Shown piece after piece: positions 5,225 to 64,000 of a DNA stretch of 64,000 nt. The position numbers and the translations under genes are program-made. The notes under the pieces were generated by a model that was not told where the DNA came from, did no database searches, and saw only the letters and a list, made by a program, of their open reading frames with translations. The stretch's first letter is position 1. Each line of letters starts with the position of its first letter. The stretch comes from Asterochloris sp. CNOR1. Lineage: Eukaryota; Chlorophyta; Trebouxiophyceae; Trebouxiales; Trebouxiaceae. The DNA lies in contig OZ017755.1 in assembly GCA_963969365.1 (NCBI GenBank), forward strand, positions 2,232,001-2,296,000. The letters run 5' to 3'.

Positions 5225-8200
5225 ATGCAAGACCTCAACTCATTGGTAGGTGGCCTCACAGAAAAGTGGCCCCAGCTCTGTTGGCTGAGGTAAGGCCCCT
5301 GGCTTGCAACTCCCAGGCACATGCACCATTGTGTCTGACATTTGTCACTGCTCATGCAGCTTGGCAGTGCCCTGCGAGGGGTTTCTGGTTAGCAAAGGCA
5401 ACTTGGCACAGCCTAACACACAGGCCCTGAGCCTTTTGGCCCCGGAGTCATCTCTGGCTGGCAGAGTGCTGGCAGAGGGTTCGATGACATGCACAGTCCC
5501 GCCAGACCTGGCATCTTCCCCAGCAGCTGAAACGTGAGCTCAAGAACTGGCTGAGCAGTTGCTGCCCCCAATGTGGCCCTGCTGAAGTGGAAAGTGCCTT
5601 TCCACAGCCCATGATGGCTTCCATCTGAAGTGAGCAGCCCCTCCCTTGTTGTTGGCAGGCACAACTTCACGACAGACCAGTACTGCACTAGGTCAATGAG
5701 TTCCCCAAAGCTGCAGTGCAGTTCTTTCTGCAAAGTCAAGGCACACACTGCACCTCCCAGTCAAGGCACATATGCTACCAGCAGTAGTATCCTGAGCAGG
5801 CACTCTGCTGTGCAGGCTGCTGTGGGATGCAGTGACGGCAGCACGCTGTGGTGCCCGCATACTGCAGGGCTGGCCGATCAGAGATGGCCAGGGCGGCAGA
5901 GGGGTCTTGTCTGTAGGGTTAAGCCCGTGCATGGCAGCCCCACCACGGTGAGGGCACCAGCACCCCATACAGTGCTATGGTTCCATGCCAGGCTTACTGC
6001 GAGGAGGATGTCTGGTGCAAGCGGCTGCAGAAGCTACTCACCTGAGACCCGTCACAGCTACTTCACAGCGCTTGATGCGCATTCTGCTTGGCGCGCTGGC
6101 AGAAAGCACAAAGTGCATGTGTGCTTGCAACTGCTGCAAATTGCAGGGCGGGCCAGCTAGCCCTGTAAAGTGCTCCTCCTGTCTCAGATTCTCAAGTGCT
6201 CCCCCACACGCAGACCATGCTGGAAGATGCTCGAAGTGTCAGCGGCAGACTTGGAATGCCCTGCAGGCTGCAACAGGACCTGCAGCGCCTTCTCGCTCTG
6301 GTGACTCGCCACCTGGAGGCCCTGGCACAGCCCATGAGGGAGGGGGCCGCTGCATTTGTGGGCCTGGGAGCACTTGAGGGCTCGCAGCCAGCGCTGCGGC
6401 GGATGCATACCCCCCACCCAGGTGTGTGGCCCTGCACTGGTGGACAGAGTAATCTGCACGCCAGCCTAGTGCCACTCAGTGCCCTGAGCCCTGGTGACCT
6501 TCCATGTGAAGGTCACGGCACAGCCAATGAGGGATGGCCCTGCTTCTCATGCGGGTGTGTGGGCTGTGCGCTTGTGCGGGTGCATGCATCCCCACCAGTG
6601 TGTGGCTGCTGGGAGCCGGGCTGGACCAGAACATATGGATGTTGGTCAAGGTTGCGGCAGTGGCCGGTCTATCATCAGTTGTGAACAAAGCAACCTGCAT
6701 ACCAACGCCATTCGGTGTCTGAGGACTGAACCAAGTAGACTCCGGCGGCAAGATTGGTGATGGCCAGCTGTGGGTCGGCGAGTCCTTGTGCGAAATGCAG
6801 GGTGGCTCAAGCTGGGCTGTCATCTGAGCACTGAGGCGCCCTGTCACACTGACGCAGAATACAGGCTGGACCCTTGGTTGGACCTCCTGCAGGTGTTGGG
6901 GAGCTGCCAACCTGCCGCAGCGAGGGTACACCACAGCCTGGGAACCTGCTGCAGCGGCCTGCCAGCAATGTTTGCAAGCTTGAGGCACAGCAGGAGGCCG
7001 CTCCACGCGGCCCAGACGACAGCGACCTGGGCGGTGCCTCCAGCATGCGCATTTCAGAGGTGGGCTTGTAGACGCATCTGCTTGGGTGGTTGTTGGTGCA
7101 AGCAAGTCTGTGTGCGTGAGCTTGAATTGCGCGCAGCCTGGCTCAAAGCACTGGAACTCGTCAGAGATTGCATACTGCAGCAGCAAGAGGGTGCATCATC
7201 AACCCTTGAGGTCATGAATTGATTGCTAAGCCGGTCCCCGTTCTCTGCATGTCTGTCTGCAACAGCACGGGACGCGCTGAACAGAGGCCCTTAACAGAAG
7301 TGCTCAGGTGCAGGGGACTGTGCGGTCCAGCCTCAGCGGCAGATCGCCCAGTGGTGGCGGCACTAGTAGCAGTGAGACTGGCAGCAGCTTGACGCACGTC
7401 GCCAGTGCAACAGATCTGTACAGGCCTCGCTGCCGCAGCCTGGGGACTGGCACGGGTAAGCTCTTCCCTGCATCTGCTGCACACACTGTGCACTGTGTGC
7501 TGCTGAGTACCCTCCGTAGTCTGCTTTCATGTCATGTATCTCTGTGCTCCTCTGCCGACGTTGATCTGCTTGGCGCTGCCATGCACTGGGCATGGCGCAT
7601 CAGGCCATGGCTGCAGATGATCGCACGGAGCACCACCAAGGATGCCAATGGACAGCACCAGTTTGCAGCACCATGAACTTGCTGACAAGTGCATGCTACA
7701 CAGGCCGCCTGCCGCTCAGCATTCCTTATGTTGTCGCTACTATTATTTGTCTTGTCTGCCTTAGCATTCCTTATCTGAGGCATGAGTTCCTTCCCCGCAG
7801 GCACAAGCGCCGCGCATGACGATGACGGCTTTGCAGACCTGGTGCTATGCTCTTCTGCACCACAGGGTAGCCTGGATGGCATCCGGCGCCTGAATGGCAG
7901 TCAGCACCGTCCTGCTCCTGTGCAGCCCTGTGGAACGCCATTTGCTGCAGAGCGTGAGCAGGTCCAGCAGGAGCAGGGCAGAGGGTCTGTGGACAAGGTG
8001 CGGCCATGGTACCCATGCCTCCTCACCAACCTCTCACTGGCACAGCTCCTCTGTTGCGTTCGTCCAGGGCAAGACACCTGCCAGCAGGTTCCTGTAAGCC
8101 TCTCGCCGTCACTGGTCAGTCATCATGTCTGCCTGGGAAGAGGCGTCTGCTGTGCCTCAGTGAGACGCTGCCTGTGTTGCCCTGCACACACAGAAGCATG

Positions 8201-10406: not shown

Positions 10407-13400
10407 TCAGGAGAGCAGGGTCTGGCGGAAGGTGCCTGATCGCCGATTCCAGGGCAGGCTGCCACTGCTGCTGGTGGGGGAGGGGCTGGGGGTTGGGGGC
10501 ACGTCCATGGCCTTCCCTGTCAGCACCGCCTCCTCGTAGTTTTGAGAGAACCCGGTCGCGATGATGGTCACATGGATCTCGCCCTCATACTGGTCATCGA
10601 TGACGGCGCCGAAGATGACGTTGGCGCTGGGGTCGGCCAGGCTGGTGACCACCTCTGAGACCTTGTTGACCTGCAGGTGGGCACAAGGCTGGATCTCTGG
10701 GATGGTCCCATGCTGAGCGCAGAAGGCCCTCATGCAGGTGTGAAGGCTGTGCATGGCGCCTGGCTGCTGCAGAGGTGGGGCACTGCAGGCAGCCAGAATA
10801 TGCATTGGAATGACTCGGCAAGGCTGCAGCTACAAGGAAGCCTGTGTGGCAAGCACGGCAAGTGCATGCTCTCGGAAGGTCCGGGGCAGGACGCCCTCAA
10901 GCTCAGGACCACATGAGCCTGCTCCAGCCAGCTGCCACTCACAGCGGCTGCACCAGCGTGCCGACACAGCAAGCACCCCCACCTCCTGAATGGTGAGGTC
11001 CCGCCCGCCGGTGATGTTGAAGACAATCCCTGTTGCTCGCTCGATGCTGCGTTCAATCAGGGGCGCGGATGTGGCTGACTGCAGAGGCATGGGCACAGGC
11101 ATATGGGCGGCCGGCGGCCCAAACAGCGGGTGATGCAAGCACATCAGGCAGTTCCATGCAGCGTCCTGGAAGAACTGAATGCTGATGCAGCAGCGCTGAT
11201 GACACACAGCCATCGGAGATGCGGCTGTTTGTTTGGAATTGAGGTTGTGCATCACGGAGGACATAGCAGGAGGGCACCCTCACTGCAAGAAACATGCAAC
11301 CACCTCATTGCTGCACACTGTCAGGCAGGGCAGGGTGTCACAGCAGGCAGGCAGCATGTTGGCTTACGGCCGCAGCCTCCTCCGCCCGATTCTTGCCACT
11401 GGACACCCCCACGCCCAGCATGGCCGTCCCGCTGTTGCACATGACGGCCTTCACATCCGCAAAGTCCACGTTGACCAGGCCGGGAATGGTGATGATGTCA
11501 GAGATGCCCTGCACGCCCTGCAGCACGGCAAGGTGTGCACCTGAGTGGAGGGGGGAGGGTGTCAGAGAAGCCCTGCACTCCCTGCAGCAGATGACAACAC
11601 ACGAGCTCCCCATGCAGATTGTGTGGGGGCCTCAGCTGGCAGCATTGTCAGGAGCATTGCTGACGCCTGGGAGGCCCTGCACACCCTGCAGGCGCAGCAA
11701 GGCTGGGGTCATGGTGGTGAGCATGATGCCCCTGGTGTGTGGTAGGAAGGCCCTGCAACCTCTTCGGGGCACAGGAGGCCACACATCAGTGCCTGCCCTG
11801 ATGCTGTACAGCCATGCATGGCCACCCTGACAGGCCTGAACAGGACTGCTCTGTGCCAGAGACCGCTCACCTGGCCCAGTGCACTGATTCCCAGCAAGGG
11901 CAGCCTTTTGCATCACGCTTGTTGCCCCTGAGCTAGCTGGCGCTATCGTCCTGCGCTTGCCGCAAACCAAGTTGGCCTGCCTTGCGCAGCATGTTGGCTG
12001 CCAACAGGAAGGCCCTGTGCAGCACCCTCCTGGTCCTGTGCTGCAGCAGCTGCTGATCAGGCGAGAGCTCACCTGGCGCAGCACGTCGTCTGCCAGCAGG
12101 AAGGCGTCCTGCAGGGCGGTGCTCTCTGCCACGACGGCCAGGAGGCGGTCGTTGGGGATGACGATGAGGGTGTCCACATTCTTGCGCAGGGTCTCAATGC
12201 CCTCGTGCGCCTGCAACACAAGGCACAGACAGGAGAGATGGTGGGGTGAGGAGCTGGACTGCATTTGGTAGGGTTATTCACAAAAGTAGGGTTGATCTAA
12301 AAAAGGTGTCCGCTCTGCACAGGGTCTCAATGCCGCCGTGCCTCTGCACAAGGGGGAAGGGTCCTTCTGAGGCGGCAAAACGCCAGGCCAGCTGCTAGCA
12401 CTGGTTGGCCATGGCCTTGTGCTGGCGAGTGATGCCCTTGCGGGCGTGCACATACCACAGTGCGGGCTGGCCCCCCCGTGTCTGACAGATGAAGGGAAAG
12501 GTTGCACAACGGCAACCGTGCAACTCATTTGTATGTGGGTACAACACCACCAATAGCGGAGCTGCATGGCAGGATCTTAACGGTGCACATTGCCACTGCT
12601 GGCCAGGCATTGCACTTGCCTGATTGCCACGCCGCCGCCCCTCAAAGGTGAAGGGGAAGGTGACCACGCCCACTGTGAGGATGCCCAACTCCTTGGACAG
12701 GCGCGCCACCACTGGGGCAGCACCAGTGCCCGTGCCGCCACCCATGCCGGCTGTGATGAACACCTACACCGCAAAGTTTATAGAAGCTTAGGTCTGTGCT
12801 ACATTTGCAGAGCTCGTCCGATGTACCATCATGATGGTGAGTGGCTGCAGGGTGACAGGCAATTTCCTCATGTGCTCATCCCCTTGCAAAGCGCCAACAC
12901 AGCAGCACCTGGGCATACTTTGCCGTGCGTAAGGGCTGTGATGGATATCTGTGGCACATGAGGGCCAATATTGACCATCTGTATGAGTCAGGTGGGTTCA
13001 GTTTGCAAGCCACCCCCACTGCCGCTCCAGGGAATACAGGCAGCATGCAGGCCAATTCAATAGACAGAGTGCCTGGCCTTTCCAGCGGACGTCCCTGCTG
13101 GGCAGTCATACCAGCTGTGTCGGACACCTGCAGCATGGGAAAACCAGTTGCGCCACCCTTCGAGCAGCTCTCATGTCTGGATCTCCCCCAGCCAAGTCAA
13201 ACAGCTGCACAGGCAAGCAAAACTTCCATGTGAGGCAGTCTTCTGAGGCAATACGCTGAGGCTGCGCCCAAGAGCCCAGGGCAGGCCCCCGCATCAATAT
13301 GATGCCAGCTGCAAAGAGAAGCAGACACCAGAAATTATGTGACTGAGGCACCCTGTCTTAGCAAGTCACAGTGAGGCAGCAGATATGAAGCAGGGGCAGC

Positions 13401-14944: not shown

Positions 14945-15295
14945 GTTGGCGAGGGCTGCTTGTGTGTCTTAAAACGGGCTAGTTGATGCCCTGATGCCAG
15001 GCCTAGCAAAAAGGCAATTGATCCGTCAGATTCGCAAGCGCCCAAGCCAAAATTCCTCTTGCTTTCTGATGAAATCAAAACTGAGGTGCTTGGGTGCTGG
15101 GGACTTGTTCTGACAGGCAGGCTGCAGACAGCGGCGTTGTACAGAGTGTCATATCAGGTGCAAGGGACATAATTGACATAATCAACACCGGGGGTTGGCC
15201 GGTCTTCATGTCATGTTCATATTGTGGGTGGACTGTTTCGGGAAGGGGTTCTTGGAAGCCGGCAAGCGATGTGATAGCTATCAATTCTGCCAGGA
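14945..15295. other. Promoter side of ftsZ and 3' end of reductase 1
   Basis: This is the gap between the ftsZ start codon and the stop of the neighbouring minus-strand reductase gene. It should hold the ftsZ promoter and the reductase 3' UTR. No motif stands out. Confidence 0.4.
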
Positions 15296-16435
15296 TCAGT
15301 TACCTTGACCAGTCAGAGCCTGGTGCACTTCAGCAATTCCCTGAAGCACATCTTCCCGGTGAGCTGCAAAGTCCTGTGGTGCTTGAGACAGGATGACACC
15401 CTCTAGCTGGTGCTGGATGGTGAGCATGAGCCCTGGCATGGTGGGCACGACGTTCATCTTGAGCCCTTGCAGCACCTGCACATTCTGTGTTCAGAGTTGC
15501 AGCTCAGGTGTCTGTGCAAGATGCACTGCCGCCAGTGCATGCTGCTACCTGGACACAGCCTGCAGCATTGCCTTCAGAAAACCAGAGCACGCACCTGTTT
15601 GAGCTGAGCTGCTCCCTTGCCTCCCCCATGGCTGCCATAGCTGACAATCATGGCTGGTTTGCCGTTCCAGCTGCGATAGAGGTAATCTAGGGCATTCTTC
15701 AGAGCTGCAGGATAGCCCCAGTTGTACTGCATGGCAGGGCAGCCATCTGTCAGCTGGTTTTTACAGCAAAGTCAACCTGCAAGGTTTGAATCAGCTTACC
15801 TGGGGAGTCACAAACACCATGCCGTGCAGAGAGTCAACCTTCTGCTGCCAGGCCTTGGTGTGATTATGTACAGGTGGGTGCATGGCAGGAATGCCAGGCT
15901 CATCGAGCAGGGGCAGAGCAAAAGAGGCCAGATCAACCAACTCAAATTCAATGTCTTTGTGGCCTGCACTGCTGGCAAGGTCATAAACCCAGCGTGAGAT
16001 GGGCTGGCAGTTGGCTCCTGGCCGTGTCGTGCCCATGATGATGCCAATCCTTTTTTGTTGCAGCTTTTCTTCTTCTTGCACAGGGCTGTAGGACCAGAGG
16101 AGGCCGCAGCCTGTGGCAGCTGTCAGGCCCAGGCTGACCAGGATAGCGGGCTGCAGAGGGAAAGGGGCTTTGCAACAAGGCAAATGTGCCAGCCCAACTC
16201 AGACGCAGGGCTCAGGCAAAACTCACCCCTTTGGCAGCACTGCCCCCGCTGGCTGTGGCAAGGTGCCTGAGATGCGCAGCCTCACCAGCAATGGGTGCTG
16301 GGTTTGCCTGAAATCGAGGGCCTTGTCAGCACTGGGTAGTGGATCACACTTGAGCCTGCCAATCAAGTGCACCTGGCCCGATCTTAGACATGCCACTAAA
16401 ATTAGTGGATTTCTGGAGGTCAGTCTCCTGGACAT
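15296..16435 (-). CDS. NADPH-dependent FMN/quinone reductase, copy 1 (N-terminally extended)
   Basis: Flavodoxin-fold reductase of the NADPH-dependent FMN reductase family; such enzymes reduce FMN or quinones with NAD(P)H. Exons 16435-16373, 16307-16227, 16150-15800, 15726-15595 and 15475-15296 are all phase 0 and give about 268 residues. IGIIMGTTRPGANCQPISRW is the phosphate-binding loop of the flavin site, YNWGYPAALKNALDYLY the family's second signature, and SYGSHGGGKGAAQL the third. The first two exons encode an Arg/Ser/Ala-rich leader, and the third starts with a hydrophobic stretch (AILVSLGLTAATGCGLLW). That suggests targeting to an organelle and a membrane anchor, absent from copy 2. 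Lies head-to-tail with copy 2. The family is clear; substrate and location are inferred. Confidence 0.88.
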
Positions 16436-16674
16436 GGTGCCCTGGACACTCTTATTGTTGCGGCCAGGGTTGAGATGGCCACAGCTGGTTAAACGAGCAG
16501 AGGAAAGCAGGGTTACTCGGCTGCCATCTCGGCTCCACGGGGAGCGCAACAGCTAACAAATCATCGCCAAAACGTCTACATGTCAACATGTTTCTGCTGT
16601 GGGTGGGTTGTTTCAATGCAAACAAAATCCTTGTAAGGCCTCAAGTGATGTGATAGCAGTCAGCGCAGCCAGAA

Positions 16675-17690: not shown

Positions 17691-20600
17691 ATGGCAGAGC
17701 AGGAGAGCAGGGCAGCAGGACAGGCTGAGCAGTTGCGGCAGCGCCTGGACTCCTTCAGAGTGCAACTGCAGACTGCCCTTCAGTACAATGCTGAAGCACA
17801 GGATGGCAGGCTGCCGCCCAGCGAGCTCATCATGAACGCAGCGTTGAGCATCAAGCTGCGGCAACAGGCAGCACAGCAGGTGATGGCCATTCTGCATCAA
17901 GACACATGGCAGCTTGAACGATAGGCGTTCATTGTGTGTGATCTCCCACTGAGCCCTCTCTGAAACACGCAGGTTGCAGCAGTGCAGCAGCAGATGCAGC
18001 AGGAGGCGGCAGCAGCGCAGGCTGAGGCTGATGCATGCAGGCAAGGCACAGCCTTCAATGCTCTGTCTATGCTCTCGTCCTGCAACCAGACGTCTCTCAG
18101 GTCCCACCCATCCGCTCAACTGCCTCTGCAGACACGAGTGCTGGGACAGCCATATAGTGCACGAGTGCAGGTGGGCGCTGCCAACGCCATTTGGTAACAC
18201 TGCTTCCTGCAGCGTGCATCTGTCACTGTGCTTGCATCAAGCAGGACAACAACCAGCAACCCTACACATGCTGTTGGTGCAGCATGGCTCCAGCCCAAGC
18301 ACTGTGGCGCAGCATTGCCAGCCCTGCAGCAGCAGCAGGCGGCCTGCAGCTCCCTGCGCAAGACGTCAGCATCAGTCAGCAGGTGGCAAATTTGCCCGTC
18401 AGGCAACGTAACCAGCAACAACAGCGCCGTCTGCAGTGCCTCACCTTCCTAAGACAGGCAAGCCTGGAGCAGGAGTGCCGGCACAATGCCCAGGGGATGT
18501 CAGGCCATACCTGCACCAGACCCCTGGGGCCCTGTGCAGCCCTTACCGCTGAGCATGCTGCGACCCTCTCAACACACCCCGAGCACACAGATGGGCTGTC
18601 TTCAACATAAGAGCCCCAAGCAGCCTCAGCGGCATGGCCGCCTTTCTGAGCTTGGAGCCTGAAGCAGCCACAGAGCTGTCGCCAGCCCATAGGCCTGGCA
18701 TGGCTGCCTCACCAACCAGGCCCTGACCCTCTCCAGGCTTGTGGCCTGAGCACATGTGTGGCTACAGGTGGAGCTGCAGGAGTGGCAGCGCCTGTCCTAC
18801 AGCATGGGGGCCACCGGCGTCTGCATGTCACAGCTGGCTGCGCTGCCCAAGGGGCTGCTGGCGGCCCACAGGGCTGGAGGTGCAGCCCCTGCTGCCGAAC
18901 TGGACAGGTCTGGCAGCCCGGCGATGCACCCATCCAGAGGAGCACTGCTGGGCACTGGAATACTGCAGACAGTGGACAGGTGCGCAGTGGACAAGCGCGT
19001 TCTGATGGTGATATCATCGTGTAGAGTTATAGCCTAGGTAGCTCATGCCTCGCTGGGGCTGGGGCTGGGGAGCCATCTGGGCTCAAGCCTAGATGGCTTT
19101 TCCAGATCGTGTGGGCAGCACCTGGGTGCAGCAGACACCACCTGTCACCAAGCAACCCACATTGCTGCACACCCAGCACGGGGTGTGCTTTCTGCCACGT
19201 GACCCCTGCTCTCTGCAGGGGCAGCAGTGGCCTGCTGTATGCAGCCATGGAGCTGCACTGCCCCACCAGGCGGACAGCTCAGGTGCAGTTCCTGCATCTC
19301 GAGCTGGAAGCGTTGAAGGCGGAGTTCAACGCGCAGTTCACCCGCCTGCAAGAGCGCAAGCTCAAGCTGACTGCCGACCTGCAAGCCAAGCTGGACAGAG
19401 TCCGGGAGTTGGAGGAGCTTCTGGGGCTGCCCAAATCTGAGGTGGACAGCAGCTTGCTGGTGAGTGTTCACTGCAGCTTCTATATGCCTGTATCACAGAG
19501 CTGGACAACAGCACTTTGCTAAGTGGCAGTCCTGTCTGTTCCAGGTGTCAGGCAGATTGCCGCTGAAGCGTTCTGGGACGGCCCTGCATGGTGCCAGTGC
19601 GTTTGTTCAATGTTGCTGCAGGAGGACCGGCCTGCAGACGTGACGCTGCAAGTGCACCGCAGCGAGGTGGCAGCACAGCCCTGGCTGACTGCCGAGGAGC
19701 GGGAACAGCTGCGGGCAGAGGCTGTGGCGGCAGCAGCTGCAGAGGAGCACAGCAGGCAGTCCAACGTGGGACGAGCGCTGCAGGAGATGCTGGGAGGTGC
19801 GCAGGCATGTGCTTGCCTCTGAGGCTCTGCCTGGGTCCTGTGCATGAGGAGGGGGCAGCAGCTGCTGCAGAGGTGCATGGCAAGCGAACCAGACTGGCAG
19901 GGCACTGCACGAGGTGCTGGCAGGTGTGCAGACATGTCCTTGCCTAGGCGGGCAGGGGCCAGTCTCCTGCACACAGGGCCTGTCCTGGCTTGACTGCATG
20001 CCTGCAGCGATCAAGTGTCCCCTCTGTGCCACCTGTTGTGTCTCAACAAGGTGTCGTGCTGCCTCTTGCAGCAATGGCCTGCCTTCTGCGCTGATACAAA
20101 GACCTCTCTGCCACCACTCTCGAGGTACTGTGGCCAATCTCATGCATCTGCATGGCAGTCTCAGTGCCGCCTATGGTACAGGCGCAGCCCCAGGCGCCGC
20201 TAAGGCTGGCCGAGGGGGTGGCAGCACATCCACTGCTGCTGACAGAGGGCTGGTGGAGGAGCGCTGGATGGCTCTCCCTGATGCAGAGCTCACAGCCCAG
20301 CAGAAGGCCACCAAGGCTGAGTTCGTCAAGAAAATGCAGGTGCGCTGTTGCCCTCCCATTGGTGCGCTGTGCATATGCAGATGCCGCAGAGCTCACTGTC
20401 CAGCAGGCCGTCACCCAGGCTGAGGTTGGCAAGGAGCTGAAGGCGGACTGCTGCTCTTGCATTGATGCGCTGCACACCAAGGTGCACGGCTCACTGCCTG
20501 GCCAGTCTCACCAAGGCTGAACATGTTAGCCAAGCTGCTGCGGGCAGCATGCAAGCATGCGTCCCTTGCTCTATCCCCGCCAATGTGCTGCAGCCTTGCA

Positions 20601-23600
20601 TGCATGATGCTGGCGTCAGAGCCTCTGACTGGTGCCATGAAGTGACTCCTGCCTAAGGCACAAGACGCGGAGTGCAGGAGGGTTTGTATGCAGCAGATGC
20701 TTGTCCAGGGCCACTGCTGGCCCTGGGCCACTGCTGGAACAGCACTTTTTTGCTGACTGCTGCCGGCAGAGGCTGCGGTGGAGAGTGCAAGTTGCTTCTG
20801 CCCCAGGGCTGCCCCTCCAGTTGACATTTTGCCTGCAGAGGAACCAGGAGGAGCACGAGAAGCAGAACCGGGCCCACAAAGTGGAGCTCAGGCTGCTGCA
20901 CCAGCAGATGGATGAGGCCTGTGGAGCCTTTGACAGTTCGCTTCAGGTGCGGCGATCTTCCACATTGCGCAGCATTGGGCAAGCTGCACATCACACAGGG
21001 CTGAGTGGAATGTCTACCTGGCTTGCTGCTGGCGCGCCACGCCATGCCATGTCATTGCCTGGTACCTCACAGGCACCTGGTGCACTTGACAAGCAACCTG
21101 CAAGATTGCCAAGCGCAGCTGCATTGCCATAGCCCTTTGATGCATGGCAGGGAGTGGCTGCTGAGGGGCACCTGCTTTGCCCAGCCCTGTCGTCAGCCGA
21201 CAACAGCAGCTGCCCACACCAAGGCTCTCCTGCAGAGGATGTCTTGAACACCAGCTGCAGCCTTGGCAGCATCACCTGACAGCCCATAGCGATGTGTGAT
21301 GTCGAGGCACCGAGCAGAGTGCAGAGCTCCCGCCAGCCCTCAGGCATGCCCCCAACTCAGCTGCATGTAACACCAGACCTGCTGGATTCTGCAGGAGCTG
21401 CGGGTCAGGCGCGAGCGCACCCTGCTCGGCCTCCACAATCTGGAGCTGTCCCAGCTCAGCCTGGCGCAGGCAGCTGAGCAGCAGGTGCTGCTTCAGCAGG
21501 CTGACGCAGCCATTTCTAGTGGACTGGCGGCCAGCCTTAGGGCTCACCAGGAGCACTTGCCGCAGCTGCAGGCAGCACAGGAGGAACTGATCAGGTCAGC
21601 GGCAATGAGCTCGTGCCTGGAAATCTGTCATGTCAAGGCCCCTGCCTACCTGCTCTTTCCAGTCGTGTGCTTGACTTTGATATAGCTGGCCAAGCACTGT
21701 CCAAGCGAGTCGGAGCGCAAGCTTCAACCTGTTTGCACGCTATGTCTGGCATCAACATGAGAGACTGGTTGCCCCACAGCAGCAGGTCAACTGCCTTGCA
21801 CACTCAAGGGCCCATCTCTGCGACTGGTCCCCTGCGTGCACCTCTGTGATGGCTGCCTGCAGGTTGAAGGCGGGCCTGGCAGCCCTGCAGCAGCACCAGA
21901 GGGCCACTGACCGGGTCTGCAGAGCCCTAGCGCAGCGCTGCCCCGGCAGCACCGAGCTGCAGCACATGTACCATGACGGCACCAGGGGGTTCACTCCCGT
22001 TCCTGACGCTCTGGCAGTTAGTCCAGAGCTGCTGGTGCAGCAACCAGCCCTGCCGGAGGCAGCAGCAGCTCCACTGCTGCATACTCAGCCGGCGGGGACC
22101 AAGCCGCTGCTCACTGAGGCTGACAGGCCGGCTGAGGTTGACGCTGAGGACTGGGCCCACCTGGTGCAGCTGAGGGATCTGAGGCTGACAGTGCAGAGGG
22201 AGGCTGCCAGCGTGTCGCAGCAGGGCAAGGGCCTGCAGCAGCAGATAGACAGAGCCCTGCTGGCGGAGCAGCAGATGCTGGGCCAGATCCAGCTGCAGAA
22301 GGAGGTGGGCAGCACTGTTGCAAGCAAGGCCAGCCCACAGCACCGTGGACTGGACACCACCCTGTGGGCCATGCATGAGCAACTGGCCTGGCAGTGTCCG
22401 ATGCTGGCGGTGCCCTGGCTGGCTTGCTCAATTGCATGTGGAGCCCCGACATGTGGAGCTCCGGCATGTGGACAGCAGCAAGTCCTTGGTGCATTTATAC
22501 CACAGTGCCTTGCACAGCAGGGCAGCGTCGACTGTAGCAGGGCAGCTACTGCAACATGAGCTTTGAGCAGGCCTGTCTTGGGCTGCAGAGGCTGGAGCAC
22601 AATAAGAACGAGGCCCTCCACCACGCATATAACCTGGACGTGATCAGCATGCTGAAGCAGGGGCAGGTAGAGGGCCTGGATGGGCAGCTCATGCCAGACA
22701 CCTCTGACCTAGTCATGCTGAGCAGGTAAGTATGTCAAGGTGCAGCTCATTGAGGCTCGAAGGCTTCTAAGAGGGACAAGCAGGTCATGGCAGACACCTC
22801 TGACCTGAATATGCTGAGCAGGTGAGCATTATCAAACACACACATCGGGGCTGGGAGGCACGCTGAAGAGATGGCCAGATCATGCCAGGCCCTGTCTGGC
22901 GTTGGACTGAGCACGGACTTTCTGGCGTGCAGAGTGGTACACCTCAGGCGTTACAATCAAGCTTGCGACACGGTTGTTGGAGCGAGCTGACAGCAACGCT
23001 GCACTCCTCTTCTGCCGACAATGAGCAAAGTTGTGGGGCAAAGGGAACCAGCATCAATTGCTCATTCTGTTGTCAGCTGGCAGAAGGATGACTGAGCCGG
23101 CGTCAAATCTGCTTGTTCTGTTGGCAGCTGGACGGGCCTAACCAAACCAGCATCAACTGCTTGCCCTGTTGGCAGCTGGCAGGGTGCTGACTGGACCCAT
23201 GCCCGGGACATATGCCTGGTGATGTGTGTTCTGCAGGGATGTGATCGCGCTGCTGAATGGGGCAGTGCGTGAGCAGGGTACGGCAGCGGTGGCCCTCATG
23301 CAGGGCCTGCTGAAGCTCAAGCGGGTAGTGGCCGCTGACAAGTGGGATTGCGACGCGGCCCAGCTGAGGCTGCACCACATGCAGGAGGTGCGTGGTCCCC
23401 CTTGAGACAGTCCCTGACGAGTGGGTAGCGACGCAGAGCTGAGGATGCACCTCATCGAGGAGGTGCATGCTGGCCCTTGAGCAGAACGGGTGCTGTAGAA
23501 AGCTTCAGCATCCTATGCTGAGACTTATAAGTTGGACTGCAATGTAGCCCAGTGGGGGAAGGTGCGCCCTGCTGCTGGATGAAACATTCTCACATGCTGG

Positions 23601-47661: not shown

Positions 47662-50600
47662 TCAGATGAAGAATCTCTTGCGGGAGCGATCCATCTGCTT
47701 GTGATTGTACATCCACTCAAATTCGCCGTGCTTGCTGTCAAAGGTGCCCTTCTGCATGCTGCGCAGCTTCAGGGTGAAGCGCGGGCCCAGCTCCTGCAGC
47801 CTGGCCACCACCCGCCGAGACTTCTGCTTCTCGCCAGGATCCCTCTTCTCCTTCTCCTCAAAGATGTAGCGGTGGTGCCTGCAGGCCGCACAACCAAAGC
47901 TTACGCAAGCGGCGCATGCAGGTCAGGCAAGGAGGCCGCATCAGCATGCCTTATCTGTATGCAGCAGTTGCGCCAGCAGGGAGTGGAGCAGGGAGGTCAT
48001 GCCTGAAATCAGTATGGCTCAGCTGCATGAGGTGCAAGACTGCACTGGCAAGCAATGAGGGAACAACTTCTCAGCGTCAAGCCACTTTGTAAGGGATCCC
48101 GTAGACCAGTGCTGCGTGACCAAGAGGGGTGATGCCGTTCAGCAACGGGGCAGTCTGCATGCCCCTGTACCACTCAGAGAGCCTGTCACTGTAGGTCTTG
48201 CTTACAGCCGACAACACCCTTGTGCATTTACATGGCGAGCTCCCGGAGTTTGCCAGGTATGTAAGGCTGCTTGTTAAGGCCTGGTCTCTACTCTGCTCAG
48301 TGCATGCCGCCCAGGGACAGGCAGATGCAGCCCGACTTGAAGAAGATTTTAGAGCAGCTGATCATGGAAGGTGTCAACATGGTGCCCTTTGAGGCATAGC
48401 AACATGCATCAATCAGCACGACAGGCAGCTCCCCACCTAAAGAAGATGTAGTCTCGCTGGTTGTGGAAGGTGACTGCGCGGCGACCCTTGAAATTGGGGT
48501 CCTGGTTGAACAGGGAGGCAAACATGCGTCCCACGCGCTGGCCCAAGCGTGTGTTGAAGTTGTTCAGGATCAGCTCAGGCTTGTGACTACTGGCACGGCC
48601 ATGACCCTGCAGGCCATGAGGTTTATGATTCTGAAAGTTGCAGCTTGTGCTGCCGGCTGGAAGCAAGCCCGGACACTGCTACTGGGCTTCTGACGTCCTC
48701 TCAGACTCGGGGCTGCGCAGCAGAGCAAGGCTCTGCATGCAGTGCCGGTTGGTAGACTGACAGGGCGTGGTTGTGCTGGCGGCTGCCGGTGAAAGTGCAG
48801 CTCAGGCTTTTGGCTGTTGGTTCACCTATGCCCCTGCAGGGAGTCAAGGCAGGCTGGCTTCAGTGTTGCAGCAGGGTCAGCTTGTGCTGGTAAGCCGAAC
48901 CTGGGAATGGACCTGCTGCGTGGCCTGCAAGGGCTATAGTGCAGCCATGCTAGCGCAGTCATGGCGTGCAAGTATCTGAGGTCTGAATTGACTGTGCCAC
49001 TGGCACGGGGCTGCTATACACACACCCTCCTGGCGGGGCACCCACACTGACGTTCAGGCTTGTGGACGCTTGTGTGGCCAGGGCCCCGCCAGCTTGCACT
49101 CCAACTCAGCATCGTGCCATGCTGCAGGCTGGTGGTGCAGCCTGTACATGTAGGGCTGGACTTAGTGTGGCGGCAATTTGAAGGGTGGGAGAGTCATGCT
49201 TTGCACTGACTTGACAGGCAGCTGCAGCTTGGCTCAAGGCCTGTGTGTACTCTCCCAGGACCTGCCCCGCACCTTGATGTCTTTGCTCAGCACTAGCCGC
49301 CTAATGGCAAAGTGCGCTGTGGGCCCCCCTGGCAGGTGGACGACCAGCATCCCGTTGACCTGCTTGTGGTTCTCGTTGAACACCACAACGTCTGTGAAGT
49401 CCCTGTCCGTGGCGTACTTGACAATCTTCTTGATGGCAAAGCCCTGGAGCATGGGACAGGGGTGTTGGCACATGGCCTGGCACGCCCCCAACTGCTGCGG
49501 CTTGCATGCAGCTCAGCTGGGTCCCCAAAGCTGGCGCAGAGAGGGGGCACAGTTTCTGGCTGCCCCCAGACAGAAGGCCAGCAAGCAGTCCACAGGCAGC
49601 CTGCGGCCTGCAGCTGTTGTCCAGAGCTCAATTGCCTAGCGCGCCCTCAGCAGGCAGGCAGGCCGTGGGGTGGAGCTGCAGCGTCATCAGCAGCTGATGA
49701 TTAAGGATGCTCACAAACCCACCTGGCGTTTGTAGTATGTTGCATTGGGAAAAACTGTGAGGATGTCAGTCAGAAAGTTCTTCATGACCATGGTGGGCCT
49801 GTAGCATGTCGTCAGCAGGACATTGGGCGGCCGTGCCTTCGCAAAGTGCTCTGCATCCACAGTACTCATGTCAGAGGACGGGGAGCTGAGCAAACAGGCT
49901 AGCCTGTGTTGTCTGTGCTGTCTGTGCTGTGGTGCAGACATGCAAGCTGAGGATGGTTACAAGCTCGAAGTGCGGCGGGCCTGCACCACAAGCAGCACGA
50001 AGCATTGCCTCACTCCAGGGCTGCCCCGCCTCGCTTGGCCAGGGACAGGCACAGGCTGCCCAGGCAGAGCAGGAGCACAGTCAGGCACAGCACAACAAGC
50101 TGTGCCTTGGTCAAGGAGCTGCAGTGGTCCACAACTGCGCCACAAAGCGCCTTTGCAGTGCAGCCAGCACGAACTACCTGGCGGCTGACAGGAGTCACTG
50201 ACCCACCTGCAAACTCGTCCTGAGCCTCATCAGCCTCAATTTCTGGGTCATCAGGCTGCACAACTGTGGCATCGGGCTCCCGCATGCTCTCAATTGTCTG
50301 CAGCGCAGTGCAACACTGCCATTACTGGAACAGGTATCTGCTTCGCACTGCAAGGTGACGCTCAGCCCTGCCTGCTGCTAATTGTAACACCTGTCTAGCC
50401 AGGCTGGGTCGGCAGCCATTATGTCATTCTCCACATTCTTACGGGTGTGTCAGCAACAAAGGCAGCTGTGTAATGATCATCACAGCATGACTATTCTTTG
50501 CTGTGCTTATCTGCTGGCTGCGTGACAGTGGCAAAGCTGTGTGGCCCTGAGGCGCCTACTGACCCTGGGGATTTGCTTCTGCGGCGGCTTTAGCCCGAGC

Positions 50601-52547: not shown

Positions 52548-52643
52548 ACACCGGTCGGCACGCATCAGACATCGACTCAGTAGCCTTCAATCTGAAGGTG
52601 CAAGCACATTTGGTAGCCTCTCAATCCCCATGCTCTGCCTCCA

Positions 52644-54334: not shown

Positions 54335-54692
54335 TATCTCATTCGTTGTACATTTTCTTGGCGCTCCAAAGTGCTGCCCAAATCAAACAAATGATAAATA
54401 AGTCAACTAAACACAAAGGCCTGGTGCCACAGTACAGCACTGGAGCTGCTGAATGGTTCTTGGTTGTGTTGCTGAGTCAATCTGAGATGCCCCACCAGCT
54501 TGACTGGCCTACTGCCTCTGGTAGCTTGGGTGTACCCTGCTTGGGACTGTTTGCTTTGGTGCCATTGTGCTCGGCATGCGTCTGTGAGTGCCTTTCAGAT
54601 CAGATCACAGACCCCTTAACATCTTGTTTGGAGGTAGCCTGGCTGGTCTGCTTGCGTAATGTGTCATCCAGCACCTGCACGAAGCACTGACT
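54335..54692. other. Convergent 3' intergenic region
   Basis: About 358 bp between the TMEM53-like stop and the stop of the minus-strand repeat protein. It contains an A-rich stretch AATGATAAATAAGTC near 54388-54402. No coding exon seen. Confidence 0.4.
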
Positions 54693-57600
54693 TTACTCAG
54701 CAATTGCTGTGTTGCAATGCAGCGAGTTCCTCAGGTTCGCGGAGCTGTGAGGGCAATGGCATGTCTTTGAGGTGTCACAAACCTGCCCAGCTATAGCAGC
54801 AATGGGATGCTTGCGCACACTCAAATTGCCGGAGCACACAGACTGTGACACAGTAGAGGGGAGAAGTGCGGCCTGCTCTGCAGGTTGCAAGGCTGTAATC
54901 ACCGTATGAAAATGACCCACCTCTGGGCTGGCGACATGGGGGTTAAGGGTGGAAACTGGTGGAGGTGGCGTGCCATTCGTGTACTCCAAGACTGCGCCAT
55001 ACAGGCTGCCAGCCACCTGTAAAACGCAGAGGGTGAGGTGAGGCACTGTGCGAAGCGTTCATGTGGCCAGCTGACATGTGCACAACCTCTATGCTCTAGA
55101 GGGCTGTTAGCAAGGAAGTCATGTAGGCCCTGATGTCGTCCCAGCAAATCGTCCTTACGCACCAGAAACCAGCTGCATTTGCGGATTGTGAGCCCTGACG
55201 AAGGACAAGTCTCTGCTGAAGATAAGGGCTGCCTTGGAAGCCTTACCTGGGCGCCTGTGAGCACCACATATTTAGTGACGTTGAACTCTGTTGCGACTGT
55301 CTTCTTGACGGCCCACCAGCCCAGATATGGACCGAGCAGGCTCAGCTGCACACCAATCTGCAGCGGCGTGCAGCACAGGCCCTCAGGTGTGGGCTTCGCT
55401 TCTTGAGCAGCAGGCTGAGAGGGCGTCCATTCTACAAAAGCAGGCATCACAGGCCCCCAACCGCATGGTATGTGTGTTTGGGCCCTCTCAGCAGGTGGAG
55501 GTGCATTTGAGTTGTGTGCTGTGGGTGAAGCTGCAGGGATCACTGCAGCTGCCATGCCTTGCATGACAACAGAGCAAAGAAGGCGCCAGGGTCATGGCAG
55601 CCTTGTCACCCAGGCGGGATGGGCCCAGCATGCCTGACCCCGAGAATGCCTGGCTGGATGTGTGCAGCAATCCTGCTCAGTGCGATCTGCAGCTCCAGGG
55701 TTGACAGGAGGTGCACTCAGCAGGCAGCCCGGTGCAGCACTGGCTGTTGCTCAGTGTGATCTGCAGCTCCAGGGTTGACAGGTGGTGCACTCAGCAGGCA
55801 GCCCTGTGCAGCACTGGCTCGCAAGTGCCGTGGAGCCCTGTCTGGATGGTCTGATTGTGAGACAGAGCCGCGCAGGGTGCCCGCAAGATGCTCCATGCTC
55901 AGCCTGCAACACAGCCCTAAGAGCCACACTGGGACAGGGCACAGCTGAGCCTGCACCCTCAATGTACAGGCAGCTCATCTCAACCTCACAGCCTGTGCCT
56001 AGCCAGTGCCCAGGACAGACACAGCCTTCCCCCAGCCCTCAGGCAACAGCCTAAAGTTTGACTGGACACTTCACAGAACAGCTCAGCCTGGGCAGGCAGC
56101 TCACCTCGATGGTCTTGTAAGCAATCCTGGGGGTGCTGAGCGCCACGGCACCAGCTGCTCCATACGTCAGCAAGCCAGCTGCCACCACAGTCTGCAGCAG
56201 GCAGAGCCAGCCTAATCAGGGCAGGGGTGCGGCAAGGAGTTGGTGCCTGCATGTGCACTGCAGACAGGTTTTGGTGCACAACACAGCAGACGGGCAGCAG
56301 ATTGAGCAGCTTCTGCAGCCAGCATCCAGGGCCCTGACAGGCACAAGACACTGTGAACGCTGCCTGCTAAGCAGCCACCCTGCCTGACTGTCAGGCCTGT
56401 TGCTAAAGATGCCCCAAGGGAGGCAGCCTTCCAGTACGCTTTCTCGGTCTGCTCACTGCTGCTCAGAACAGGCTGCAACATCAACATGTATGAGGCCCAA
56501 GGTTGACCCCCTCACCTCAGCTGCAGGCTTGACCTCCTGCCGGGCCTGCTTGACGAGCTGCACCCCAACCAGGGCTGCACGGTGCGTCAGGGCAGCCTCG
56601 CCCCTCAGCAGAGCCACTGCCTTGTCTGTGGCCACTGCCGCGACCGTCCTGCCCAGGTCCACAGCAAAGAAGGCCACAGCTGTTCCCTGCATGCAGATCA
56701 CAGCTGTACTCAAAGGCTGGGGCACCAGGGGGGGTTGGGTATCTCCAGATGCTGCATGCCTTGGGCGCAGAGATGGCAACAGCTGCTGTCTGCAAGAGGG
56801 GCATTGCATGTGACCACTTGTGCTGCCCCCTTGGCACTGGCACACTGCAGGCATAGCACCTAGTCAGTGGCCACGACCTTGACCATTCTGCCTACACTTC
56901 AGATGCATGACTGGCTACACCTCCTCCCTGCAGGCATGGCACAGCTGCAATGATACAGAGATGAGCTGACACCAGCGATGCCCAGATCCCACCCTGAGAG
57001 GGCCACAGCCGCAACCTGCAGGCCCGTTGATGCTGCCTGGTACCAATTTGCGGCTGCACTGCCACAGCTGCAGGATGCCAGGCGCCCAAGAAAGCATTGG
57101 TGAGGGTGCAGCACATGGTCAGTCTTGCAGGAAGGCATGAACAACGACCATTGTTGTTTTTGAGAGTGGAGGGACCCGTTGCTTGGAGTGCAGGCCGGCA
57201 GATATGCCACATGGCCGTTATGCACAACTGTCAAGCATATCCCATCATCTGTGCTGCCAAGCACGGCATCTGGAGTCCATCCCGACAGAGCCTGGTGGCT
57301 GCGGGTGCAGTGCAGAGGTCTGGTGCACTTATGCACAGTCAGAAAGCCCATCCTCTGAGCCGACAATGCAGCACGCCTGGGGAGGCACCATGCCACCCTG
57401 CCAGACACGAGCTGCATGCAGACTGCCGTGCATAAGCGTCTGATGCGCCAGCATGCAGCACTGCCAGCCTGTTGGATATCCCAGGACGCGAGCCACCGAG
57501 CACAACAAGGCAAGGGCGTGCTGCAGTGCTGCCTGCCAGACATGAGCTGCACTCAAGCACTGAGCACAAGTGGTACACTGCCAGCCAATGAAGAAACCCA

Positions 57601-60600: not shown

Positions 60601-63600
60601 GCAAGTGCAGCATCTCATCCATTCAGCCAGCAGGCTGCCAGCATCTCCTCCAGAACATCATGCAAGTGAGCTGTCCCACCTGCTCACCATTGTTTGCCAG
60701 CAGGCCCACTGCAAAGCCATGCAGGTGCATTGTCTCACCTGCTCAGCCTTGTCAGCCAGCAGGTTGCCGGCCTCGACCACCACCTCCAGGGTAAAGCTGG
60801 GGGCAGACTTGACCACATTCATCACCAGCTGCTGGGCAGCCTCCTCATCTGTCAGCCCATACTGCAACACATGGATGAAGCAGGGGTGCCTCAGGGCAGG
60901 GCATGCCCTTGACAGGCAGAAAGCATTGATTGAGGACTGTCATGACAAGTGCCGTCATCCCCATCCAGTGATACTGCAGCACAGGGCAGACGTAATATGG
61001 GTTGCACAAGGCATTGCCTCTGCCAAAGTTGAGAAGGGGTCCCTCTGGAGTCAGCTGCAGGGATCAGTCAGCTGCTGGGCAGCCAAGTTTCTGTGTCAGA
61101 CCAAATGCAACACCAGCTAGTGATGAGCCGCAGCTGGAGAATTGTGAGGCAGGGAAGACAAACCCCTCGACACTGAGCGAGGGTCGTCAGCGGCCGTCAG
61201 GGGTCTACTGAGGCTTGCACATCAGCCACACAGGCAAATGGACTCAGGGCTGGGGAGGATTACCTGTGTATGGACGCAGTCCACTGACAGGAGATAAGGG
61301 GAGGGGTGCGCCTCCTGTGTCCCTTGCTCTCCAGGGCCGCAGGCAGCAGAAGCAAAACCCAAGAGAGACAGATTCGGAATTGCGAGGCCACGGGCCTTGC
61401 TGCACAGAGGAACCTGTTTGGCAAGAGTTCACCCTCTCTGCCCTGATTTCGCAACCTGGCTGTGCCCGCAGCTAGCTGGGAAACAGGAGAAATGGCAGAT
61501 GGACACGCTCTGGGCTGGCGTCCTGCAGGGTGGCCGCGCCCACCTGCAGCCAGTGGACTATACAGACAGCCTGCAATGGCAGGTGCACACCTTCTGCGCC
61601 TTCTGCTTGATGATCTGCTGCACCTCCTCCACCAGCACTCTGGCCTCCAGCCCCGCCCGCTCCACCTTGCCAGTGGTCTCAGGCGCCACCTGCAGGACGC
61701 CAACACCTCATAGGTGGTTTTGCTGCGCTGGCTGGCTATGTTGGTGGTCTGAGGTGACGGCTTCAGCACGCACACCAGACAAGTCAGAGGGGAGCCTTGT
61801 AGCAACACATAGCCCTCAGCATGAAAGGGACTTGTGGAGGCAGCAAACTTGGACAGTGCGCATGACTCATGAGGTCAACTAGTGCTGAGTCACTTGTGCC
61901 TAGTCAGGCTGTTGTCAAGATGCGCTGCATGATGGATGAGCAGCGGCTCAACTGTGCCGCTCACAGAGCAGCGGCACCCACGTTGTTGCTCCATGCAATG
62001 ACTGCAGTGCGCATGCTGGCAGCATGACTGCAGCAGGGGCAGGCCTGCATCAGATGGGGAAGCTAGGGCCATACACAGCTCGCCCGCTCCAGCCTGTCCT
62101 GGAACTGATACTGCAGCTCACCTGCTCTATCTGGTCCCACAGTAGGCAGGCCACAGCTCAAAAAGCTGGCCACATCCATCTTGTCCCAACATGGGCGGGC
62201 CACAGCTCACCTGCTCCATCTTGTCTCGAATGAGGCGGGCCACGTCCGCCACCGCCTCCTCGCCAACCTGCGCCAGCTCCTGAGCCTTCTCAGGGGCATG
62301 CTTGACAGCGTCAGCTGCAGCTGAGCCTGCCTGCACACGGACACACATGAGCATGTGAGGCCATGCCCGGCTGCATCATGCAGCTTTGTGGGAGCCACCC
62401 CTGCTGCAAAGCATGTTTTGGGACGACGCGGCAGATGGCTGACAGCCAGCTGTCCTTGTGAACCTGAAGCAGACACGTTGCCCCAGCTGACGGCTTTGCA
62501 ACTACAGAACGGCCGTGAAGGGGCCCAACCTGCTCAGCTAAAGCACTGGGTGGACACAGCGCCCCAGAAGTTGAGCGCACTTAAAGCGCACACTCCCTGG
62601 CGATAACAAAATAGTTTGAAATTTATGCTTGAAGGCAAACTCTTGCTTGTCATACCGAAAGCTTTTGGCACACCTGACCGCGACTGCACAGCAGCACATG
62701 GGTTTGATTGCCAGCCTGCTTGGCTGCCTTGACGGTCTGCAGGATGCATAAGGCAGCCACCCCCACATGCTGGCAGGATCAAGGCTTGTACATCTGGCTT
62801 GGTTTCATAATGCTGATGATGACAGTACCAATCTTTCTGCCTTGCATGGCTGTCTCGACAGCCTACAGGACGGCAAAGGCAGCACCTCCCATGTGCTTTT
62901 GCAAGCGGAGGGGTGCTCACCTGCTCAGCCTTCTCCACTCCAATGACAGTAGCCCCAAGCCCAACCTTGCCAGCCTGCTTGGCTGTCTCAGCAGTCTGCA
63001 GGACGGCAAAGGCAGCCACTCCCACTGCCATCTCTGCCAAGTTCTCCAGCTTGTCCGTAGTCAGACTGGCAGCCCCAACTGCCACCTCAAGCCCCTGCAT
63101 TAGCAGCGTATACATCAATGCGTATCTCTGGATGCCAACAACAATGCCAATTTTGTCAGCACTTTCAGAATCAGTACGGTGACAGAGTGGACAGTGTGTG
63201 GCAGCCCAGTGCCATGCCCAGCCCCAACACCAGCAGGAAGCTATAAGCTGCTGGGATCAGTCTAGCCGCTACTTGTGCCAGAAGAGTATTTTGCCAGAGA
63301 CCCAGCTATCCATGACAGCGACGGCAAACAAACCTCCAAGAGTAGCAGCAAAACCATACTGGGTACTGTGGGCAGCCATTGGCTTTCCAGGCTTGAGCAT
63401 GGCCTGCAGTGTAGCTGGCTGACTATGCACTCAGGTAGAGGCAGCACCGCGCAAGGGGACTAGCTGGTGCATCAGGTCGCGAGCCTAGCGTTCCTGCTGG
63501 CATCTTAGCACATGGGGGTCACAGGTACCAAGACAGATCAGCGCCTTTCAACAGATGTGTCATAGATGGAGACCAAAAGCAGCTCGTTGACCTGGTGTTG

Positions 63601-64000
63601 CCGGGTGCCTGTTGCAGGCAGGCAGTGCATGGCAGCCAGTCACAAGCACAGCGTTGCCCAGGATAGTGCTTGAATGCAAAGCTCCTCACTGCAGTGAGGC
63701 TTGCAAGTATATCCTCTACCTGATGCAGATGCTGTCACTCAGTTGGCAATCCTGGCACCGGCACAGGCTTGCAGGTAGCCCTCTACCACATGCAGGTGCT
63801 CATGCACCTGGCTGACTCTGCTGGCATTGGCGCCACCCATGACTTATCTTTGACTGGCAGAGCAGCTGACGTGAATGTCCCACTGTGTGCAGGTGCTGGC
63901 ACATCAGTTTAGCGGTGCAGCCCAGAAGCATGCACCTCACCTTGTGCAGGTACTGGTACAGCTGGTTGGCAAAGCTGGCAATGGCACTTGCTATGTCGCC
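54693..64000 (-). CDS. Ala-rich helical repeat protein built from phase-0 exon modules (5' end outside window)
   Basis: Enters from the right edge. Exons found: 64000-63941 (IASAIASFANQLYQYLHK), 63094-62921, 62330-62211, 61689-61591, 60861-60739, 59811-59692, 59182-59096, about 58893-58603, 57837-57602, 56686-56516, 56191-56105, a piece ending at 55247, and 55016 to the stop. Most are exact multiples of three in phase 0 (174, 120, 99, 123, 120, 87, 171, 87 bp), each following CAG and many ending in Gln at CAG|GT. The modules end alike: GVEKAEQ, RDKMEQ, LLADKAEQ, LLEDKGNQ, TWDKLDQ. They are Ala/Val/Lys/Glu-rich and amphipathic. The C-terminal half adds more hydrophobic parts (GLLTYGAAGAVALSTPRIAY, LLGPYLGWWAVKKTVATEF). 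This resembles lipid-surface or LEA-like helical proteins in general character, but I do not recognise the family. Confidence 0.6.
55677..55822 (-). repeat. 73-bp tandem duplication in intron
   Basis: CTCAGTGCGATCTGCAGCTC and the following ~50 bp (55677-55749) recur at 55750-55822 with very few changes. It is among the most similar duplications in the window, so probably recent. Confidence 0.9.
57363..57590 (-). repeat. Two-copy ~120-bp intron repeat
   Basis: On the minus strand, GGCTGGCAGTGTACC...CTCATGTCTGGCAGGCAGC (57587 downward) recurs as GGCTGGCAGTGCTGC...CTCGTGTCTGGCAGGGTGG (about 57472-57393). The first copy begins just past the donor of exon 57837-57602. Confidence 0.65.
60478..60778 (-). 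repeat. Four echoes of exon 60861-60739 donor edge
   Basis: On the plus strand the source (60736-60777) reads CACCTGCTCAGCCTTGTCAG, then CCAGCAGGTTGCCGGCC. Echoes lie at 60677-60718 (CACCTGCTCACCATTGTTTG, CCAGCAGGCC), 60611-60650, 60545-60588 (TACCTTCCCAGGCTTGTCGG, CCAGCAGACTGCCAGC) and 60478-60517. Period 60-67 bp. Two echoes keep a donor (complement CACCTG or TACCTT). Confidence 0.85.
62083..62248 (-). repeat. Three echoes of exon 62330-62211 donor edge
   Basis: The source at 62209-62248 (plus strand CACCTGCTCCATCTTGTCTC, GGCGGGCCACG) is copied at 62170-62207, 62119-62158 (CACCTGCTCTATCTGGTCCC, GGCAGGCCACAGCT, donor intact) and, weakly, 62083-62118. Period about 40-50 bp. Confidence 0.85.
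62711..63029 (-). repeat. Two echoes of exon 63094-62921
   Basis: The source at 62979-63029 (GGCTGTCTCAGCAGTCTGCA, GGACGGCAAAGGCAGCCACT) is copied at 62847-62896 (GGCTGTCTCGACAGCCTACA, GGACGGCAAAGGCAGCACCT) and 62720-62770 (GGCTGCCTTGACGGTCTGCA, GGATGCATAAGGCAGCCACC). Period about 130 bp. The nearer copy is the more similar. Confidence 0.9.
63721..63987 (-). repeat. Three echoes of exon at right edge
   Basis: The source at 63941-63987 (TGTGCAGGTACTGGTACAGC, TGGTTGGCAAAGCTGGCAAT) has copies at 63884-63920, 63789-63835 (CATGCAGGTGCTCATGCACC, TGGCTGACTCTGCTGGCATT) and 63721-63764 (GATGCAGATGCTGTCACTCA, GTTGGCAATCCTGGCACC). Confidence 0.75.

Follow-up and report, generated by a model that had tools for sequence, protein, structure and literature searches.

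Decayed tandem copies of exon edges occur in introns of the green alga Asterochloris sp. CNOR1. They have been analysed in a window of 64 kb (contig OZ017755.1, positions 2,232,001 to 2,296,000; coordinates below are those of the window) and in further stretches of the same assembly. The copies, here called echoes, are real and specific for the exon they adjoin; the window contains them, and so do the sampled chromosomes. They are probably the product of ordinary short tandem duplication, falling anywhere in the genome, combined with purifying selection on the exonic copy. The source is an Asterochloris-like lichen photobiont. The assembly carrying the window measures 56.4 Mb, in 21 contigs, 18 of which are chromosome-sized. 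For A. glomerata, passages of a published description (PMC6652019) give a genome of 56 Mb, 9 introns per gene, a mitochondrion of 110,932 bp and a chloroplast of 217,546 bp.

Most tests were run on 284 kb, made up of the window and 22 stretches of 10 kb; 18 of these stretches lie at hand-chosen round positions, one per chromosome, and 4 were the first from a random draw of 100 places. A smaller set of 244 kb served for self-BLAST, shuffle comparison and gene-finder training, and eight loci from a tubulin search (L001-L008) were excluded. In the 244-kb set, ungapped direct repeats (score at least 20, distance 8-600 bp) form 105 arrays with 181 pairs in all. Third-order shuffling, done once per stretch, gave no such repeat, and chance is therefore excluded. 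Self-BLAST gave 74 direct and 0 inverted matches at 40 bits, several of which can stem from one array, and 105 direct and 2 inverted matches at 35 bits; 69 of the 74 direct matches at 40 bits join sequences at most 500 bp apart. The comparison with shuffled exon-intron pairings, proposed in a first-pass annotation made from the letters of the window, used only introns between confident exons (defined below): 65 of 403 introns match the adjoining exon at a score of at least 16, vs 1.0 expected from shuffled pairings. At this score the upstream exon edge is matched in 39 introns, the downstream edge in 29. Non-adjoining exons of the same locus match an intron in 24 of 12,500 trials, and echoes are therefore not a matter of gene-wide composition. 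There is no sign of introners or dispersed repeats: all-against-all BLAST of the 403 introns found no pair common to different stretches at E 1e-5 (3 pairs at 1e-3); two intron pairs matching at 1e-10 belong to paralogous FMN reductase genes. A literature search, most subscription journals lying outside it, turned up no description of decayed exon-edge copies on a genome-wide scale.

Gene models were made by a two-strand hidden Markov gene finder self-trained on the sequence, which converged on the donor CAG/GTGAGC and the acceptor CTGCAG/G. Two Astpho2 proteins, corresponding to a predicted PDR transporter and to an Ala-rich protein, were mapped back to check exons; Astpho2 is a JGI code which we take to be Asterochloris, and its models may be predictions themselves. 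The larger exons were borne out by the mapping. Both genes, however, proved to have false small exons in their introns, such as that at 38397-38432, an acceptor echo miscalled by the gene finder. The raw classification of the arrays (66 exon-edge vs 22 intron-intron) rested on labels including such exons. It was redone with confident exons, measuring at least 50 bp and having a coding score of at least 4, a choice by which some true short exons are lost. Edge pairs became 65, and intron-intron pairs rose to 31.

Exon-intron matches are present in all five genes named in the first-pass annotation, and its arrays were found at or near the places it gave. The features of the window are listed below (d, distance between copies in bp; percentages, identity of the copies).

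6295-6371 and 6488-6564, plus strand: exon-intron echo in the gene called membrane protein (d 193, 69%); the exonic block ends 50 bp short of the junction, in predicted exon 6267-6421.
11483-11525/11547-11589, 11980-12022/12072-12114 and 12183-12215/12316-12348 (span 11483..12348), minus strand: three short duplications in the ftsZ gene.
19775..19945, plus strand: donor-side echo in the CFAP43-like gene (d 127, 84%).
20283-20369/20386-20472, plus strand: donor-edge copy in the CFAP43-like gene (d 103, 75%); the gene finder made the second copy a doubtful exon, and the array was therefore classed as mixed instead of edge; by eye, a third and weaker copy reaches to ~20530.
22684-22733/22780-22829, plus strand: donor-side echo in the CFAP43-like gene (d 96, 84%); a third, more worn copy reaches, by eye, to ~22900.
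23362..23481, plus strand: donor-side echo in the CFAP43-like gene (d 75, 82%).
23681..23842, plus strand: acceptor-side echo in the CFAP43-like gene (d 125, 84%).
23935..24309, plus strand: donor-side echo array in the CFAP43-like gene, copies at offsets 149, 266 and 344.
37711..37843, plus strand: acceptor-side echo in the PDR transporter gene (d 100, 82%).
38362..38561, plus strand: acceptor-side echo in the PDR transporter gene (d 151, 78%); by the Astpho2 protein, which lacks the upstream copy, the exon starts at ~38548.
48571..48840, minus strand: acceptor-side exon-intron echo in the Brix-domain gene, assigned by position (d 227, 77%).
55674..55819, minus strand: clean two-copy tandem duplication, intron-internal according to the Astpho2 protein (d 74, 96%, 2 bases between copies), the cleanest of the longer tandem arrays in the window.
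60636..60763, minus strand: donor-side echo in the Ala-rich gene (d 59, 72%).
62114..62243, minus strand: donor-side echo in the Ala-rich gene (d 89, 80%).
62708..63025, minus strand: two intronic copies (62843-62891 and 62708-62766) of the inner part of exon 62921-63094 of the Ala-rich gene; matched blocks are 62708-62766/62967-63025 and 62843-62891/62976-63024.

FtsZ was identified by Pfam (PF00091), as was the CFAP43-like gene at ~17691-25447 (Cfap43 coiled coil, PF25828); the piece searched from the gene called membrane protein had no Pfam match. CFAP43 is by name a cilium protein, and a gene with its coiled coil is found here in a lichen alga; this gene holds more of the window arrays than the other named genes. 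An Astpho2 model of it was not found among the best 8000 word-sharing candidates scored in a length-limited search. The predicted PDR transporter matches jgi/Astpho2/6227 at 90%, the full query being covered; as the identity of most mapped exons is 90-100%, much of the gap to 100% stems from differences between gene models. The Ala-rich protein matches jgi/Astpho2/6224 (82% over the full query). Its gene (54603-63115, minus strand) encodes repeated motifs such as LADKAEQ, LLEDKGNQ and TWDKLDQ; the Astpho2 relative (P0122) belongs to no Pfam family, and was the sole homologue listed among the 8000 candidates scored.

Arrays in the 284 kb number 111, and include 65 exon/edge-intron, 31 intron-intron, 8 exon-exon and 3 mixed cases, as well as 4 outside introns. 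Donor and acceptor sides are both affected (31 and 34 of the 65 edge pairs), as had been annotated. The annotation also described the echoes as copies of the exon edge with its splice site. This holds for the 50 of 65 edge blocks which reach or cross the junction, not for the 6 which stop more than 30 bp inside the exon, those at 6295 and 62967 included; 8 further blocks end within 10 bp of the junction, and 1 within 11-30 bp. Periods, first given as about 45-135 bp, vary more widely: the median is 107 bp and the 5th-95th percentile range 38-255 bp, in a scan limited to 25-600 bp. Array spans cover 17,018 of the 180,649 intron-labelled bases (9.4%). Introns of 200-300 bp hold an echo in 5 of 88 cases and those of 450-900 bp in 40 of 120, in line with the suggested tie to long introns, though the trend is partly trivial since copies add length. 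No general gradient of divergence with distance from the exon, as had been noticed in several arrays, was observed: of 18 multi-copy cases, the nearest copy has the higher identity in 7 (sign test p 0.48) and the higher score in 13 (p 0.10), 3 of 21 cases having been dropped because both offsets mark one copy. In the array at 62711-63029, BLAST identity is 86% for the near copy and 83% for the far one, but 0.72 and 0.85 over the scored exon-edge part.

The copies are direct, local and arranged head to tail, as those of short tandem duplications. Best z values above 2, a sign of residual homology in the stretch between copies, were obtained for 17 of 51 pairs of the edge type and 6 of 19 of the intron-intron type, vs 5 of 70 random controls; many units at least are therefore whole tandem duplications, in which the doubly decaying intronic part has been worn away first. 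At identity of at least 0.84, at least 89% of the period is covered in 6 of 9 noncoding pairs and in only 5 of 15 edge pairs (uncorrected labels); in the others, traces of the lost portion persist.

Short tandem duplications would arise genome-wide; their units would measure between 12 bp and a few hundred bp, and ~100 bp among the old ones still visible. Where a duplication crosses a junction, splicing would continue at the junction still joined to the rest of the exon, and the extra copy would fall in the intron, where it would be nearly neutral. The exonic copy would be held by purifying selection and the intronic copy would decay, so that similarity would fade about half as fast in an exon-intron pair as in an intron-intron pair, and the exon-intron pair could be recognised for longer. 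Pairs of the former type would be visible longest because selection freezes their exonic copy, hence the impression of introns echoing their own edges. The splice site in use is presumably the one at the intact exon, as checked against the gene models of a relative only, and duplication rates may have been higher in the past. The duplications may have originated by break repair with fill-in, or by slippage for short units; a 2014 paper by Vaughn and Bennetzen on rice reportedly also deals with small tandem duplications and staggered-break repair. Six single-pair arrays outside exons (identity at least 0.88, gap at most 12) include 5 with 1-8 bases between copies and 1 with a 1-base overlap; gaps of 1-2 bases are possibly point changes, since the base next to a block mismatches by construction. 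A young set of 17 arrays comprises 5 with a gap, 2 abutting and 10 overlapping, 8 of the latter with units of at most 22 bp. Gaps of 1-8 bases are such as end joining after fill-in could leave, and overlaps hint at slippage or partial extra copies.

If duplications fell at random, 33.7 edge and 46.9 intron-intron pairs would be expected, vs 65 and 31 found. Pairs were sorted by age into four classes of identity. At identity of at least 0.88, 5 edge pairs (3.2 expected) and 8 intron-intron pairs (6.8 expected) fit random placement (p 0.57). Counts are 14 (5.8 expected) and 4 (8.7) at 0.82-0.88, 23 (13.4) and 14 (16.9) at 0.75-0.82, 23 (11.9) and 5 (13.6) below 0.75. In the classes below 0.88 pooled (60 edge, 23 intron-intron) random placement is rejected (p 3e-7), and the edge to intron-intron proportions of young and old pairs differ (Fisher p 0.024). 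With every doubtful array removed the proportion in the young class is 2:5. None of the 17 arrays of the young head-to-tail set (identity at least 0.90, units from 12 bp) is of the edge type, 1.3 being expected (plus 1.4 mixed); shuffles gave 0 arrays. A process favouring exon junctions, as the first-pass annotation had put forward, is not borne out by these youngest pairs, which have no clear edge preference. The caveat added to that proposal, that exons may merely be the part that can be recognised, fared better, since the edge excess sits in the older pairs as it predicts. A process aimed at exon edges is thus not supported by the young copies, and a modest or ancient bias may exist.

Uniform duplication with constrained exons was simulated, using the true exon labels of the simulated sequences. 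Earlier runs at constant and rising rates were compared with the uncorrected 66:22, a later constant-rate run with the corrected 65:31. When the age distribution was left free (indel 0.15), simulated edge pairs, from old to young, were 20.2/24.9/13.6/10.4, vs 23/23/14/5 observed, and intron-intron pairs 5.9/10.2/5.0/4.9, vs 5/14/4/8 observed. Among the modelled histories, only an age distribution weighted heavily to the past would come near both classes. Duplication may have been more frequent in the distant past; otherwise, some further advantage must have favoured edge copies in origin or persistence.

Several points weigh against uniform duplication as the whole explanation. Constant rates gave an edge to intron-intron ratio of 0.79-1.00, vs 65:31 observed, and too many young pairs; moderately rising rates gave 1.16-1.47. 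The free-age fit is flexible, as eight counts are set against eight to ten free rates. When only the edge pairs are used for fitting, the predicted number of intron-intron pairs is 48, 5 or 0 according to the indel setting (31 observed). The fit also needs a rate in the heaviest past age bins at least ~16-fold that of the youngest, a demand with no independent support. The edge excess steps up at once below 0.88, rather than smoothly with age, and noncoding pairs outside introns number 4, vs 10.5 by random placement. The young sample is small (13 edge and intron-intron pairs at identity of at least 0.88), and 15 of the 17 members of the young head-to-tail set have units of 12-38 bp, which seldom span a junction. 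Variation of rates among sites, tried as a rescue of the constant-rate model, failed in simulation.

A duplication process biased to exon edges, by repair or replication linked to splice junctions or the ends of transcribed exons and perhaps active mainly in the past, is unlikely, yet has to be weighed. It would account for the nearly doubled number of edge pairs and the deficit of intron-intron pairs relative to random placement, for the roughly two-fold shortfall of the constant-rate neutral simulations, and for the excess already seen in the 0.82-0.88 class. In contrast, the youngest pairs show no clear excess, uniform placement with older ages fits the counts, and the residual homology past the block is what whole random units leave. 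It is similarly doubtful that the frequency of duplication at exon edges has been about double that in intron interiors, perhaps during an ancient burst of far more frequent short tandem duplication, so that much of the length of long introns would be derived from exon junctions.

That partly false ab initio exons inflate the edge class is very improbable. False small exons do lie in introns of both genes checked with Astpho2 proteins, and at least one of them is an echo, but the edge excess (65 vs 33.7) is that obtained after relabelling exons shorter than 50 bp or of weak coding score; removal of every doubtful array leaves 55 edge pairs vs 28.7 expected, and the matches of introns to their own exons were counted from confident exons.

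The copies decay like neutral DNA, nearly blind to the reading frame. Exon-to-copy mismatch is 0.230, 0.205 and 0.280 by codon position, the third also carrying the exon's own silent changes. Codon changes between exon and copy are synonymous in 114 and nonsynonymous in 314 cases, and nine in-frame stops were counted. Periods of edge pairs show no preference for multiples of three (18/21/26 modulo 3), and CpG sites mismatch at 0.430, vs 0.221 elsewhere. Such decay makes it highly unlikely that the copies are functional, either as mutually exclusive or alternative exons or as spare splice sites under selection. Junction-anchored blocks speak for function, with AG preserved in 41 of 45 acceptor copies, vs 27.7 expected. 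The excess is largely an anchoring effect, however, since among copies detected through their exon sequence only, 18 of 36 have an intact AG and 8 of 46 an intact GT. At the AG site, A and G match at 0.61 each, slightly over their neighbours (~0.5); at the GT site, G and T match at 0.43 and 0.39, below the exon side. Retention of splice-like sites in many copies, as first annotated, is thus not clearly above chance. Also, the Astpho2 PDR and Ala-rich proteins omit the copies at 38362 and in 62708-62891. Duplicated (mutually exclusive) exons were rejected as a candidate, because frame and coding constraint are not kept in the copies. Least probable of all is that echoes are traces of duplications that created introns: the donor CAG/GTGAG and the acceptor CTGCAG/G have CAG/G in common, and introns hold exon-edge echoes, but the donor and acceptor flanks of an intron agree at 17.22/60, vs 17.37/60 in shuffled pairs, and 0 of 392 introns reach 32, a result limited by the fact that very old births would leave no visible trace.

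Echoes look like fossils of ordinary mutation, which can still be read because the exon is conserved, and not like the work of a new process aimed at edges. The first-pass annotation knew of no named process of this kind; the formation of small tandem duplications in break repair is well documented, however, and for one that crosses a boundary there is a published case, in the RdRp gene of potato (Ma, Lan and Niu 2016, PMC4974935). There, as here, a short tandem duplication lies over one intron-exon boundary; in potato a new intron was made, whereas here the extra copy decays in an existing intron, and in many genes. Another duplication of 83 bp, inside an intron of the same potato gene, is reported to be without effect on gene structure. 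In the human genome, according to passages of two papers (PMC5730883, PMC8355091), tandem duplications are the commonest small insertions, and are tied to end joining of overhangs. The direct head-to-tail copies of tens of bp are alike in both systems; staggered-break repair has been shown in mouse and human cells, whereas here old products alone are seen, for which this route is a candidate. In two green algae tandem-repeat density is highest in introns, with more repeats near intron-exon junctions (G3 2013, PMC3887541); the motifs named are mostly short (e.g. GT/AC), and the passages at hand do not state that exon edges are copied. Creation of introns by segmental duplication (Rogers 1989; Hellsten 2011, both as given in passages of PMC4974935) also involves exonic sequence tandemly duplicated beside splice-like signals, but predicts homologous donor and acceptor flanks, found here in 0 of 392 introns.

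Other features have been identified in the window. The gene at its start (1-2162) encodes an MT-A70 (PF05063) methyltransferase domain. Tandem NADPH-dependent FMN reductase genes (PF03358) lie at 15251-16058 and 16630-17435, and are ~86% alike, introns included; alignment of this recent paralogue pair showed no exon-edge copy gained in either. A Brix-domain (PF04427) protein is encoded at ~46400-50900 on the minus strand, the position being that of predicted exons. A predicted stretch at ~51762-52489, also on the minus strand, presumably resembles the C-terminal part of a non-LTR (long terminal repeat) retrotransposon reverse transcriptase; a Pfam search made with a faulty query gave no match. 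Rfam and tRNA scans of the window found nothing. Outside the window, the highest-scoring near repeat in the sampled stretches is a tandem array of many ~102 bp units, up to 93% alike, at 3425-4230 of stretch L022.

Echoes can mislead ab initio gene finders; the one used here placed false small exons in introns, one of them an acceptor echo. If a bias to exon edges were true, it would be a new source of intron growth. If ordinary duplication and selection on the exonic copy are the true explanation, echoes would form a dated fossil record, in which the ancestral state of every intronic copy can be read off the frozen exon, and a single genome would reveal the spectra of neutral mutation, the rates of indels and the past course of tandem duplication.

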